Below are positions 15,761 through 58,730 of a stretch of 64,000 nucleotides of DNA, piece by piece. Positions within the stretch are counted from its first letter, which is position 1. Each line of letters begins with the position of its first letter. The position numbers and the translations under genes were made by a program. Source of the stretch: Gammaproteobacteria bacterium. GTDB lineage: Bacteria > Pseudomonadota > Gammaproteobacteria > Pseudomonadales > JAUIET01. The stretch is from contig JAUIHW010000006.1 of assembly GCA_030431775.1 (NCBI GenBank), forward strand, positions 1 to 64,000, written 5' to 3'. The notes beneath the pieces were generated by a model. That model did not search any database, had not been told where the DNA came from, and worked only from the letters and a program-made list of their open reading frames with translations.

Positions 15761-15875
15761 CGCCTGATGGTAACGTAAAGCGTAGTCCCACGGAATGACG
15801 GCGTGAAAAATATGACATTTGCAGCCAGTGCGGTTACTATTTTCGCCGCGATTTATACCGTTCAGGGAGTTCAGC

Positions 15876-16667
15876 GTGCTGCAAGTCACCCCTATTGGGG
15901 CTTTCAATGACAATTATATCTGGTTGCTGCGACCGGCAGATGGTAGTGAGGCCTGGGTGGTCGACCCCGGTGATGCAGCCCCGGTTCTCGCAGAGCTCGA
16001 ACGCTTGCAACTGGAGCTGGCAGGTATACTGATCACCCATCACCATTTCGATCATGTTGGTGGTATCGAAGCACTCAGAAAGCACGCTGCCGACCAGGGT
16101 CGTGAGCTGGTGATATACGGCCCGGACAATCCGGCCATCGACGGTATCTCTCACCCGCTGCGCGAAGGTGACTGTGCCGAAGTATTGGATACTCGTTTTA
16201 CCGTGTACGAAGTGCCCGGGCATACCCTGGATCACATCGCGTATTTCGCCGCAGAGGGCGCCTCATCGCCCATTTTATTCTGTGGTGATACCCTGTTCGC
16301 GGGCGGTTGTGGGCGGCTGTTTGAAGGCCAGCCTGAACAAATGTGGAACTCCCTGCTCAGTTTGCGTGACTTGCCTGACGAAACCCTGGTTTACTGCGCT
16401 CACGAATACACCCTGGCCAACCTGGATTTTGCGCGGGTTGTCGAGCCCGATAATCAAACCTTACTGCAGCGTATACGATCAGACCAGGACCGGCGCAGGC
16501 GTGGGGAGCCCACTGTACCAAGTCGTTTGGCAATCGAGTGTTCCACCAATCCATTTTTGCGAGCTGACTGTCCAGCCGTGCAAGCCGCCGCTAGACAGCG
16601 TGGCGGCAATCTTAACCAGGACGCTCAGGTATTTGCAGAGATTCGTGCCTGGAAAGACAGCTTTTGA
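15876..16667 (+). CDS. gloB: Hydroxyacylglutathione hydrolase (glyoxalase II)
   Basis: This metallo-beta-lactamase-fold enzyme of 263 residues hydrolyses S-lactoylglutathione in the second step of methylglyoxal detoxification. The metal motif THHHFDHVGG, GHTLDHIAYF, the aspartate in FCGDTLFAGGCGRLFEG and CAHEYTLANL are all present. I chose the GTG at 15876, which has GGGAG six bases upstream and gives the family start LQVTPIGAFNDNYIWLL. The upstream ATG at 15819 is unlikely. It diverges from the methyltransferase gene. Confidence 0.97.
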   Translation: MLQVTPIGAFNDNYIWLLRPADGSEAWVVDPGDAAPVLAELERLQLELAGILITHHHFDHVGGIEALRKHAADQGRELVIYGPDNPAIDGISHPLREGDCAEVLDTRFTVYEVPGHTLDHIAYFAAEGASSPILFCGDTLFAGGCGRLFEGQPEQMWNSLLSLRDLPDETLVYCAHEYTLANLDFARVVEPDNQTLLQRIRSDQDRRRRGEPTVPSRLAIECSTNPFLRADCPAVQAAARQRGGNLNQDAQVFAEIRAWKDSF

Positions 16668-50119: not shown

Positions 50120-51415
50120 TCAATGTGGATATGCGAATAACAACTGTGCGCCTTCAGAACTGCTGTTGACAAGCGTAGCGGGTAACGCCGCCGCCGGCAG
50201 GAGAACGGCTTGTTCAGGCTGCAGTTCCAGCTGACCGCAACGAGCGCTGCCACCAACTAACATCAATAGCAGGTAACGGCCACCGTCTGTGGTCAGCTGA
50301 AAGCGTTCCCCGGCTGGCAGGTCACAGCGGAAGGCCTGAAAACTATCGAAATCGACGATTTTCTGCGTACGGACAGCGCCATGAAACAATTCCGGCATAC
50401 TTGGTGGCGAATAATCCTCTATTCGGCTGACCTCCAGGGCTTCCTGGGTATCCCAGTGACTCTGAGTGAGCACTTTTTGCGCAAAGGAAACAATCTTGCG
50501 TTCATACACAGGCGTTTGAAATTCAACCGCACGCACACCATGCTGCAGCGAATGTGGCAAACAGCGGGGTATAACAACGACATCGCCTACTGAGAGGGGG
50601 TACATGGCCGTGTAACTTTCCATCTCTGCACGCAGCCTCGCCTCAGCCTCCTGCAACTCCACCGGCACAACGCGCTGTGCTACTTCCGCACGCTGCACAG
50701 TGGCGACATCCGCTTGGTCTGCAAGGTGCTGATCAAGTTGCCGGTCGATCATTGTTCGCACCTCATAGTAACGTTCAACGGACGCCTGATAAGCTTGCTT
50801 GAACGCTTCATCACTGGCATACCGCGCTCGCTTAGCGGGATCAAAACCTATCCTGATTCCGCCCTGCCCGTCTGGCCACGCGGACGGGTCGATAGCGGTA
50901 ATCACATAAACCTCCTGCTTTACCTCATGCAACTCGAAGTAGAGGTCACCAATGATTGGCTCAGGAGAGGGATCAAGAATTTTAAGAAGCACCGGATCAC
51001 GATCATTAAAACCAGACAGTGATTGCGGCAATGCAGCGATCAGCCATGGCAGCGGACAGCAACCTGTGGCGGTTTGTACCGCGCACACGGCCCGTTCTTC
51101 AATGCCGGTAAACCAGATTTCCCGGCCCCAGGGCTTGGCAATGTATTCTGGCGACAGGTGCAAGGGTGCACTCGGGTCAACGACCGGCAGCTGCCAACGG
51201 ACTGCAATCTCATCGAGAGAACTGCCATCTTTGAGCGCGGCGAGCACGCCGGATTGGAGTGCGGTGCGATCGGTCAACATGACTCGCTTGAGCTCACCAG
51301 AGTGCATCTCAAACAGCCCCAACAGCGGTAAAGCTGTGGCATCACCCCGCCAATAAGCTCGCAGAGCAATGATCCGTAATTCGAATACAAGACCACCGGT
51401 AGTTTCGCGCGCCAC
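50120..51415 (-). CDS. Mannose-6-phosphate isomerase-like (cupin) protein
   Basis: This protein of about 431 residues has pieces of type I phosphomannose isomerase: YIAKPWGREIWFTG, the metal-binding-like FELHEVKQEVYVI and a C-terminal cupin with LPHSLQHGVRAVEFQTPVYERKI. It is shorter on several conserved loops than ManA, so the sugar substrate is uncertain. The annotated GTG at 51415 has no ribosome site. Upstream in frame, ALNSAADWLAGEF reads like protein, and a CTG at 51451 lies seven bases after a perfect GGAGG, so the true start may be farther upstream. It lies just after the GH84 gene, which suggests a joint role. Confidence 0.8.
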   Translation of the reverse strand: MARETTGGLVFELRIIALRAYWRGDATALPLLGLFEMHSGELKRVMLTDRTALQSGVLAALKDGSSLDEIAVRWQLPVVDPSAPLHLSPEYIAKPWGREIWFTGIEERAVCAVQTATGCCPLPWLIAALPQSLSGFNDRDPVLLKILDPSPEPIIGDLYFELHEVKQEVYVITAIDPSAWPDGQGGIRIGFDPAKRARYASDEAFKQAYQASVERYYEVRTMIDRQLDQHLADQADVATVQRAEVAQRVVPVELQEAEARLRAEMESYTAMYPLSVGDVVVIPRCLPHSLQHGVRAVEFQTPVYERKIVSFAQKVLTQSHWDTQEALEVSRIEDYSPPSMPELFHGAVRTQKIVDFDSFQAFRCDLPAGERFQLTTDGGRYLLLMLVGGSARCGQLELQPEQAVLLPAAALPATLVNSSSEGAQLLFAYPH

Positions 51416-51447: not shown

Positions 51448-52524
51448 TCAGGGCATCGCCTCCGTTAAACAGGCTGGATCGAACACATACTCACCATTGA
51501 GCCAGTCACGGATTTCCTGCGCTGCAGAGCCCGTATGAGGCTTGTAGCGCTCTAGCATTTCTCTGCGTTGCGCCAATGACAGCCTGTGCAAGCCAATCTC
51601 AGTCATGGCTTCTCTGTCCTTTGTGAGTTCACATGCTAAAGCATTGCCCAGCTCAGCACTGCAACGTTCCATAAAGGTCAGCGGTGGCGTAGCCGGCCCG
51701 CCCGCTCCATAACAGTTAGGTAAAGTCGCTAATGCCAACCGGGATAGATGACATTGATTCATAGGGTTCGCGTAGTGAGCGTCCACCCATTGACCCAGGT
51801 TTGGGTCACGCCCGGAGAATGGATTGATATGCAGGAAATTGCTGGCTCGCTCACCGTCATTCACGGGGTAATTGTCCCACAGAGTCAGTGGGCGGCGGAG
51901 GCGGCGCGAGATGTGCTCAAGGTCCTCTGCAGCGATAGAAGTCGAGCAGACCTTGTTTCCAGTCCAGAATACGCCAACCTCCGGGGACAACTCCTGACCG
52001 AGAACATCCCAATAAGTGTCGGGCATTGGGCCGAATACCCGTTCCAGCACCGGGTCGCAGGAGTAGTAGGTCGGGCACATGATCAGCTGGCTGGCAAGCT
52101 GTCTTTCACGTACAAACTCCAGAACCTTAACCTGCCGCTCGGCTAAATCCGCATGGTCACAACACATGTCATCAAACAGCACTGCCAGACAATCCAGCTG
52201 TAGGGCTTCCAGTACCTCAAGTTTTGCCGCAAGCAGGCTTTGTTCCTTGCGACCGAATTGATTAACCGCACCGAGCGGGGACAGGCCTACTCCCCAACGA
52301 ATACCGTACTCCGCGCAACAGGCGGACAGGTTTTTCAGACGCTGCTTAAGCTGGCTTGGAAATGGCTCAGCCCAGGCAGAGCGCAAACTGGTCTCGGACT
52401 TTGGCGCATAAATATAATCGCTGAACCCCGCACGGGCCGACCAGGCTATCGTGTCGAGGCGGTCCTGATCAGACCAGCAACGGCCGTAAAAACCTTCCAG
52501 TATGCCCAATCGTGGAATGCTCAT
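51448..52524 (-). CDS. GH84 family glycosidase (O-GlcNAcase-like)
   Basis: This 358-residue protein has the fold signature of glycoside hydrolase family 84: GILEGFYGRCWS at the start, the paired catalytic aspartates in VLFDDMCCD (Asp118 and Asp119), and VGVFWTGNKVCS, LTLWDNYPVND and INPFSGRDP in the C-terminal half. These match the catalytic core of human O-GlcNAcase and bacterial homologues, which remove beta-linked GlcNAc by substrate-assisted catalysis. There is no signal peptide, so the enzyme should be cytosolic, and no accessory domain. The substrate could be imported chitin or peptidoglycan fragments or another GlcNAc conjugate. Confidence 0.88.
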   Translation of the reverse strand: MSIPRLGILEGFYGRCWSDQDRLDTIAWSARAGFSDYIYAPKSETSLRSAWAEPFPSQLKQRLKNLSACCAEYGIRWGVGLSPLGAVNQFGRKEQSLLAAKLEVLEALQLDCLAVLFDDMCCDHADLAERQVKVLEFVRERQLASQLIMCPTYYSCDPVLERVFGPMPDTYWDVLGQELSPEVGVFWTGNKVCSTSIAAEDLEHISRRLRRPLTLWDNYPVNDGERASNFLHINPFSGRDPNLGQWVDAHYANPMNQCHLSRLALATLPNCYGAGGPATPPLTFMERCSAELGNALACELTKDREAMTEIGLHRLSLAQRREMLERYKPHTGSAAQEIRDWLNGEYVFDPACLTEAMP

Positions 52525-52652: not shown

Positions 52653-52680
52653 TAGACAATCTGAGATTTTACGCCATACT
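52653..52680 (+). promoter_or_regulatory. Probable sigma70 promoter of candidate sRNA
   Basis: TAGACA at 52653-52658 and CATACT at 52675-52680 are separated by 16 bp, with AT-rich DNA upstream. The predicted start site is near 52687. The match is five of six and four of six positions. Confidence 0.5.
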
Positions 52681-52686
52681 GAAAGT

Positions 52687-52808
52687 AAGCCTGCGGTGAT
52701 TAACTCACTCAGGTCAGGAAGCCCAGTGCTTCAACCTGGATTTTATCCTTGTAGTTTCACTCCTATTGGTCTTAACCCGAAATCCCCCCAGGTTTCGGGT
52801 ATTTTTTT
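52687..52808 (+). ncRNA. Candidate small RNA with hairpin and terminator
   Basis: Between the promoter and a strong terminator lies a stretch with no open frame. A two-part hairpin is visible at 52710-52738: outer stem CAGGT/ACCTG and inner stem GAAGC/GCTTC with loop CCAGT. The transcript would be about 120 nucleotides. It does not match any small RNA I recognise. It is free-standing, because the next gene downstream is on the opposite strand. Confidence 0.6.
52775..52808 (+). terminator. Rho-independent terminator
   Basis: An 8-bp stem (ACCCGAAA / TTTCGGGT) with a C-rich ten-base loop is followed by ATTTTTTT. On the minus strand there is no T-run, so it acts on the plus strand. Confidence 0.88.
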
Positions 52809-52811
52809 ATG

Positions 52812-52957
52812 TACAGGACGTACAGTAGTTCGCGAGAGCCATGGATGGCGGTAGCGACTATTACAGGACGTACAGTAGTTCGCGAGAGCCATGGATGGCG
52901 GTAGCGACTATTACAGGACGTACAGTAGTTCGCGAGAGTCATGGATAAGGCAGCGAC
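52812..52957. repeat. 50-bp direct tandem repeat, three copies
   Basis: Three units start at 52812, 52862 and 52912 with an exact period of 50. Copies 1 and 2 are identical over the full unit. Copy 3 matches for the first 28 bases and then differs, including one deleted base. The core contains TTCGCGAG and CATGGATGG. The block starts four bases after the terminator. It contains no spacers, and the short open frame across it is not a gene. A dispersed intergenic repeat family is likely. Confidence 0.93.
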
Positions 52958-53012
52958 AGGCTGACGCAGTGACTGGCTGACAAAGCGCGAGCCGAGGGAC
53001 TTGCAGACTTGG

Positions 53013-53363
53013 CTACATGGTATGTGTTGGTCGATCGGAATCGAGGGCACCTGCAAGATAAGTTTCTATTTTTTTGCTGGCTGTATCGTCGAGATTACTG
53101 AATTGCACACCAATGCCAGCCGCTCTGTTTCCTTGCGCACCTTTTGGAGTCATCCAGACCACTTTGCCGGCAACTGGGATTTTCTCCGGCTCATCCATCA
53201 AGTTAAGAAGCATGAATACTTCGTCCCCAATCGAGTAGCTTTTATTGGTTGGTATGAACAGGCCGCCGTTTTCCAGAAACGGCATATACGCGGCGTACAG
53301 CACGGCCTTATCTTTTATTGTTAGTGACAGAATGCCATTACTGGCACCGGGTCGGGCACTCAT
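53013..53363 (-). CDS. pilZ: PilZ-domain protein (type IV pilus assembly PilZ)
   Basis: This 116-residue protein is the PilZ of the tmk-holB-pilZ cluster. It has YMPFLENGGLFIPT and the GEVF-like GDEVFMLLNLMDEP, KVVWMTPKGAQGNRAAGIGVQF. The RxxxR and DxSxxG motifs for cyclic-di-GMP are absent, as in the founding PilZ, which does not bind the nucleotide but acts with PilB and FimX in pilus assembly. In Pseudomonas tatD usually follows, but here repeats do. Confidence 0.94.
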   Translation of the reverse strand: MSARPGASNGILSLTIKDKAVLYAAYMPFLENGGLFIPTNKSYSIGDEVFMLLNLMDEPEKIPVAGKVVWMTPKGAQGNRAAGIGVQFSNLDDTASKKIETYLAGALDSDRPTHTM

Positions 53364-58277: not shown

Positions 58278-58511
58278 TCAGGTGTTAGCGGTGATGTAAT
58301 CGATGGCCAACTGAACTGTTGTAATGGTTTCCGCTTCCTCATCAGGAATTTCGGTTTCGAACTCTTCCTCAAGAGCCATTACCAGCTCGACAGTGTCCAA
58401 GGAGTCAGCGCCCAGGTCTTCAACAAAAGAAGCTGAGTTCTGTATCTCATCCTCTTTTACCCCCAGCTGTTCGCTAACGATCTTCTTCACTCGTTCTTCA
58501 ATGCTGCTCAT
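58278..58511 (-). CDS. acpP: Acyl carrier protein
   Basis: This 77-residue acidic carrier has the phosphopantetheine serine at Ser37 in [11 protein letters not shown]. It carries growing acyl chains. Length and sequence are typical. Confidence 0.99.
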
Positions 58512-58730
58512 TTTTTGTGAGACTCCTATTGCTCTAGCTATCGTACGGGTCCGCCAAACGGAAGGCCCCTGTTGTAGTGTTTGTAATCCAGTTCTCTTTG
58601 TCGTTGGCGTCCGCTAGCGAAGGCCAGTAACCAGCTCCTGAAGCGCGCATTTTACAACAAAACGGAATACATTAAAGTGGCATTGCTCATGTTGACCCAG
58701 TTTCATTATAAGCGCTTTTAAAACAATGGC
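58512..58730. promoter_or_regulatory. Intergenic region between fabG and acpP
   Basis: These 219 bp probably hold the acpP promoter. An AGGAG site lies 11 bases before the ATG. No clear promoter hexamers or other gene were identified. Confidence 0.45.

Follow-up and report, generated by a model that had tools for sequence, protein, structure and literature searches.

A predicted small RNA in a Pseudomonadales genome is very probably a diverged homologue of RgsA (P16)

The window analysed here is a stretch of 64,000 nucleotides from a gammaproteobacterium of the order Pseudomonadales (contig JAUIHW010000006.1), and the locus under study lies between two protein-coding genes in its last fifth. 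The first-pass annotation had placed at this locus a promoter-like pair, a nested hairpin and a strong terminator, which together would delimit a transcript of about 120 nucleotides. All three are present (52653–52680, 52689–52714 and 52775–52808, respectively), and the predicted transcript (52687–52808) is 122 nt long. The neighbouring genes are also oriented as described there, with the upstream NAGidase gene pointing away from the element and the downstream PilZ gene pointing towards it. The features of the locus, together with those of the proposed target gene, are as follows.

51448–52524, minus strand: NAGidase (PF07555) gene, divergent neighbour, with the same location in L002 (the sister genome) and L026
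52653–52658, plus strand: −35-like element TAGACA, which aligns at equal spacing with the conserved TGG-type element of relatives
52674–52680, plus strand: −10 element CCATACT of the sigma-S (RpoS) type
52687–52808, plus strand: predicted small RNA transcript of about 122 nt, RgsA/P16 homologue, with the start inferred from the position of the −10 element
52689–52714, plus strand: 5' nested hairpin (fold prediction), in place of the C-rich-loop hairpin of relatives
52718–52732, plus strand: second hairpin of the GGAAG/CUUC type, like the GGAAG...CUUCC hairpin of the sister genome
52738–52748, plus strand: small hairpin GGAUUUUAUCC directly 5' of the core, with a GGA...UCC stretch that is alike in several relatives
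52754–52773, plus strand: conserved core GTTTCACTCCTATTGGTCTT, largely unpaired, proposed antisense seed
52759–52768, plus strand: core bases complementary to the acpP leader
52775–52808, plus strand: intrinsic terminator, a stem-loop (52775–52800) followed by a run of seven T (52802–52808), with compensatory changes in relatives
53013–53363, minus strand: PilZ-domain gene, convergent neighbour, common to Pseudomonas-type rgsA loci
58278–58511, minus strand: acpP (acyl carrier protein), proposed target mRNA
58522–58531, minus strand: acpP Shine–Dalgarno region CAATAGGAGT, perfect complement of 52759–52768

The promoter-like pair has the form TAGACA-16-CATACT, with a gap of 16 bases. Scans of the single sequence over a 2.5 kb region found two promoters compared to 1.9 expected and four terminators compared to 2.4 expected, neither of which is above chance. 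The argument that the element exceeds chance is therefore based on its conservation across relatives and not on these scans. Besides the terminator, the fold of the predicted transcript has three hairpins and a stretch that is mostly unpaired; its energy is −34.6 kcal/mol (z = −2.68; one of 200 shuffled sequences folded as well). For the longer interval of the first-pass annotation the value is z = −2.04, with 11 of 200 shuffles as good. A tandem repeat with a 50-bp unit (2.7 copies, 98% match) occupies positions 52812–52946, starting three bases past the T run of the terminator. An 18-base piece of this repeat occurs twice without mismatch in the genome, both times at this site, and with two mismatches in three more places; the repeated stretch at this location in the sister genome is a different one. 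On the other side of the locus, the NAGidase gene is closely followed by a 431-aa frame (50120–51415, minus strand) that has no Pfam match at E = 0.001.

At its gathering thresholds, Rfam, whose use as a check had been suggested with the original description, recognises only a tRNA in the window. A permissive scan of 501 bases yielded RgsA (RF00628, alias P16) as the best match, with 38 bits and E = 1.4e-7, aligned end to end over model positions 1–194. A default Rfam scan misses the element because 38 bits fall short of the gathering cut-off of 88.4 bits. That cut-off is a rule for inclusion in Rfam and not a biological trait, and we therefore call the element an RgsA homologue rather than a member of RF00628 by rule. 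The clearest part of the alignment is GUUUCACUCCUAUUGGUCUUAACCCGAAAUC...CCCCCAG, and in this permissive alignment the model's 5' hairpin is left without an equivalent in the window. As in RgsA, a conserved 3' core is followed by an intrinsic terminator, and a −10 element of the sigma-S type is present at the sequence level together with a predicted transcript length near 120 nt (122 nt when the T run is counted in full). The other permissive matches (NsiR1 with 25.6 bits, snoU18, Betaproteobacteria toxic sRNA and mir-4866) are below their own cut-offs and were rejected; the NsiR1 match covers the core and the terminator. Plasmid records contained no match to the element. The first-pass annotation knew of no small RNA with this structure; judging from the sequence, the RNA is very probably of a known kind and not new, namely an RgsA homologue that has diverged below the Rfam cut-off.

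The distribution of the element was surveyed in several samples. By DNA similarity, the 3' stretch was found in 11 of 56 relatives including the genome of the window itself, and the RF00628 model matched 16 of the same 56 (again including the window's genome) at E = 0.01 or better, with a single match over the cut-off. The model matched none of 14 control genomes. A covariance model of the 3' part built from ten sequences (the window and nine relatives), here referred to as R1, matched 96 of 390 genomes from the order (86 not counting the ten source genomes) and three of 369 genomes in a class-wide sample, all three from the same order. The E-values of R1 are rough, and these large screens used stricter filters, by which weak matches are lost. 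One locus (L011) had been left out of the R1 seed as divergent; R1 nevertheless detects it with 36.6 bits. A pattern scan of named genomes, with a pattern designed to exclude the Pseudomonas form of the core seen in the Rfam consensus, provided 67 stretches with the core in genera that include Microbulbifer, Endozoicomonas, Kistimonas, Pseudomaricurvus, Exilibacterium, Sessilibacter, Atopomonas and some Pseudomonas. Going by their labels, two of the 67 would fall outside the order, Salinisphaera sp. G21_0 (L060) and an uncultured Alteromonadales bin (L052). In total, 118 loci were inspected and 114 of them gave a core, 82 of which are distinct (the window, L001, included); L011, L105, L106 and L117 gave no core by the expression used, with L106 and L117 carrying core variants. 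The 82 elements are not independent, as many are from Microbulbifer and most come from the pattern scan, in which a portion of the core is fixed. In one family, three genomes (G138, G205 and G225) each contain two RgsA-like elements located about 38–42 kb apart on the same contig, which suggests old duplicates. We recognised no report of RgsA outside Pseudomonas in the literature searched, which consisted of open-licence papers.

The promoter is conserved across this set. The motif NNATACT is present in 76 of the 82 elements compared to 7.0 in shuffled sequences (80 bases before the core were examined), and its end is located 68–131 bases before the core. In an alignment of 80 elements, where ATAAT was also allowed and positions were numbered relative to the initial A of ATACT, T occupies position −6 in 71 elements, as it does in the window, and the −35-like element at positions −23 to −21 consists of T (70 of 80), G (73) and G (68), compared to T-A-G in the window. 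On sequence grounds, the conserved −10 region fits the RpoS consensus TGN(0-2)CCATACT as given in PMC2375449. The genes rpoS and hfq are both present in the window's genome.

The terminator is equally constant, with a stem that starts within four bases of GGTCTT in each of the 81 elements whose 3' end is complete. Covariation was assessed with an alignment of 90 matches (62 distinct) that was fitted to R1 and consequently leans towards the R1 structure. In this alignment 90.8% of the terminator cells are paired, compared to 72.7% after shuffling and at most 60.0% when the structure is slid along the alignment, and eight of the ten pairs of the helix are changed on both sides, compared to 6.1 in shuffles (5 of 500 as high). 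The 5' domain is not the same from lineage to lineage, and an alignment of 28 full-length elements consequently gave no useful consensus structure (RNAalifold returned three pairs, none of them covarying). We therefore restrict the claim of covariation to the terminator. Compensatory changes in relatives had been named beforehand as a check on the element; they are found in the terminator helix, and for the 5' hairpins the alignment of 28 elements offered no consensus structure on which to show them. With the promoter, core and terminator all conserved and compensatory changes in the terminator stem, the proposal of a free-standing small RNA gene, not a leader, is supported, and the sequence indicates that the locus is very probably a real small RNA gene.

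The 5' domain is the variable part of the element. In 74 of the 82 elements it contains five or more consecutive C, compared to 15.8 expected, and in both such elements that were folded (L067 and L090) this C run is located in a hairpin loop. By eye, six of the remaining eight elements have a run of four C, and the window and its sister genome (L001 and L002) have none. To judge from these sequences, the C-rich 5' loop of relatives is gone in the window's genus. The hairpin with a C-rich loop is our own observation of a feature common in relatives and not a published criterion for RgsA.

Gene order provides a further link to Pseudomonas, where the gene after rgsA is an opposing tatD as described in PMC2375449. 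Three Pseudomonas loci (L014, L018 and L024) and one Stutzerimonas locus (L061) have tatD and then pilZ downstream in convergent orientation, the locus in a Spongiibacteraceae record (L026) has the order NAGidase–rgsA–tatD–pilZ, and NAGidase–rgsA–pilZ is the order in both the window and its sister genome. Within 3.2 kb surrounding the element of the window, pilZ is present and tatD was not found. The stretch 52809–53012, where the L026, Pseudomonas and Stutzerimonas loci have tatD, holds the tandem repeat instead. Within the DNA examined, pilZ is located downstream in opposing orientation in 19 of the 82 elements and tatD in 17. The position of rgsA is not universal, because other loci adjoin different gene families, and many loci are too short to judge.

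It could be argued that the element is an unrelated lineage-specific small RNA that resembles RgsA only at the core and terminator. The match is under the Rfam cut-off, the 5' hairpin of the family is unmatched, and the 5' half is only 53% identical (39 of 73 columns) even to that of the sister genome, all of which speak for such an RNA. However, the match takes in the unpaired core and not the terminator alone, the promoter elements are found at the same spacing, and intermediates and shared neighbours tie the element to the Pseudomonas rgsA. This chain of intermediates largely refutes an unrelated origin, which we regard as very unlikely. Still less probable is a protein-sequestering RNA of the RsmX/Y/Z (CsrB) type. 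Two GGA triplets are located 5' of the core and RgsA of Pseudomonas is indirectly under GacA (PMC2375449), but the ANGGA motif is absent from the predicted transcript as read from the sequence, and the same source describes no derepression of hcnA by the P. fluorescens RgsA, which has a single motif. The claim that the transcript has no open frame does not hold strictly, since a 52-codon GTG frame (52696–52854) is mechanically open. The longest closed frame within the element has a median of 15 aa and a maximum of 31 over the 82 elements; the GTG frame crosses the terminator and enters the tandem repeat, it is unlikely to be coding, and the chance that it represents a small protein gene is very low.

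RgsA of Pseudomonas is a 120-nt, RpoS-dependent RNA with a part in the survival of peroxide by P. fluorescens (both from PMC2375449); in P. syringae it co-precipitates with Hfq (PMC3709562). One review lists fis and acpP as repressed by base pairing with RgsA and rpoS as lowered (PMC9308961), and another describes inhibition of fis and acpP translation by RgsA with Hfq (PMC8395346). In the window, the acpP leader is located 5.7 kb away on the other strand, and its sequence over the Shine–Dalgarno region is the exact complement of ten core bases, such that the core ACUCCUAUUG covers the Shine–Dalgarno sequence with 10 matched bases. The predicted duplex has an energy of −19.6 kcal/mol, and 5 of 322 background starts are as strong. 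The 322 background starts were called in 344 kb of the genome and in two small loci, and the acpP leader was scored separately because it is absent from this set. The leaders of fis and rpoS show no unusual complementarity to the core, the only part tested, with 168 and 68 of the 322 background starts as strong, respectively. The strongest complementarity to the core among the 322 (−24.3 kcal/mol) belongs to a called start near position 15889 (15860–15949, minus strand). This frame overlaps the start of an opposite, more gene-like frame of 282 aa, which by eye has the look of a metal-dependent hydrolase; the leader is probably not real, and the complementarity is probably antisense to coding sequence rather than to a leader.

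Comparisons among genomes were used to assess the acpP pairing more widely. Out of 32 genomes in which both genes were sought, 29 were kept; G287 and G208 were dropped because the expression missed the core, and G169 because its leader is cut by the end of the locus. With one genome per genus, 13 of 14 genera pair better than the mean of shuffled leaders, and five of the 14 beat 95% of the shuffles while nine do not. The values can vary within a genus: in g53, where tatD is located beside rgsA, the representative genome G341 has −17.6 (28 of 500 shuffles as good), compared to −27.7 and −30.2 in G146 and G289 (none of 500 for either). The pairing is weaker in the sister genome (G001), at −14.7 with 59 of 500 shuffles as good. 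When each RgsA was compared with its own and with swapped acpP leaders, own pairs were no better, either among the 29 genomes (2117 of 5000 permutations as good) or among the 14 genera (3353 of 5000). This result indicates that the pairing is not visibly co-evolved, and that part of the signal comes from the resemblance of the core to an anti-Shine–Dalgarno sequence. On the complementarity found, acpP is the likeliest target here, and its repression would be expected from the Pseudomonas work.

These results lead us to propose, with a probability of about 0.88, that the locus is rgsA (P16), encoding an RNA of about 122 nt that would be driven by sigma-S and would pair through its core, assisted by Hfq, with mRNA leaders, of which acpP is the best-supported target. 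The homology, the conservation of promoter and terminator, the presence of rpoS, hfq and acpP, and the complementarity were obtained here; transcription by RpoS, binding of Hfq and repression of acpP are what we infer from work in Pseudomonas. In the proposed mechanism, the sigma-S-type promoter would produce the RNA in stationary phase or under stress, and transcription would end at the strong intrinsic terminator. Assisted by Hfq, the core GUUUCACUCCUAUUGGUCUU, which is predicted to be mostly single-stranded, could then pair with target leaders and cover the acpP Shine–Dalgarno sequence CAAUAGGAGU over 10 bases, and the synthesis of acyl carrier protein would thereby be repressed. The most likely form of action is thus that of an RpoS-driven, Hfq-assisted antisense RNA.

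What is new is the range beyond Pseudomonas and, as read from the sequences, the loss of the C-rich loop in the window's genus. RgsA, a regulatory RNA induced by stress and known from Pseudomonas (the only genus in the RgsA papers cited), also occurs in genera such as Microbulbifer and Endozoicomonas and in the window's genus, and the Rfam cut-off passes only one of the 16 relatives that the RF00628 model itself finds in the sample of 56. Within the diverged set, the constant parts (promoter, core and terminator) can be told apart from the variable 5' domain; the set also points to acpP as possibly a long-kept target and makes natural variants available for probing the function of the 5' loop. 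It is tempting to speculate further that RgsA is an ancestral, order-wide part of the general stress response, with the silencing of acpP as its oldest job, coupling sigma-S to membrane lipid synthesis, and that the window's genus has a pared-down form that kept the acpP-pairing core and lost the C-rich 5' loop along with a second group of targets. We consider this scenario tentative and somewhat more likely to be wrong than right.

SdsR of enterobacteria is a stationary-phase RNA of about 100 nt that depends on both RpoS and Hfq. It is a functional parallel to the window RNA and not a claim of homology. RsmX, RsmY and RsmZ are, like RgsA, small RNAs of Pseudomonas under GacA, the control of RgsA being indirect (PMC2375449); unlike the window RNA, which is without ANGGA, they sequester RsmA via several unpaired GGA motifs. 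The closest comparison is with RgsA/P16 (RF00628) of Pseudomonas. The window RNA differs from it in the core (CCUAUUGG compared to CCUAAUGG), in a score below the Rfam cut-off, in a 5' hairpin without the C-rich loop, in the absence of an adjacent tatD, and in a core without sign of fis or rpoS pairing. The two share a length of about 120 nt, a sigma-S-type promoter, a gene located near pilZ, complementarity to acpP, and a core ACUCCUAAUGGUCUUAACCC that leads into a terminator whose loop is C-rich.
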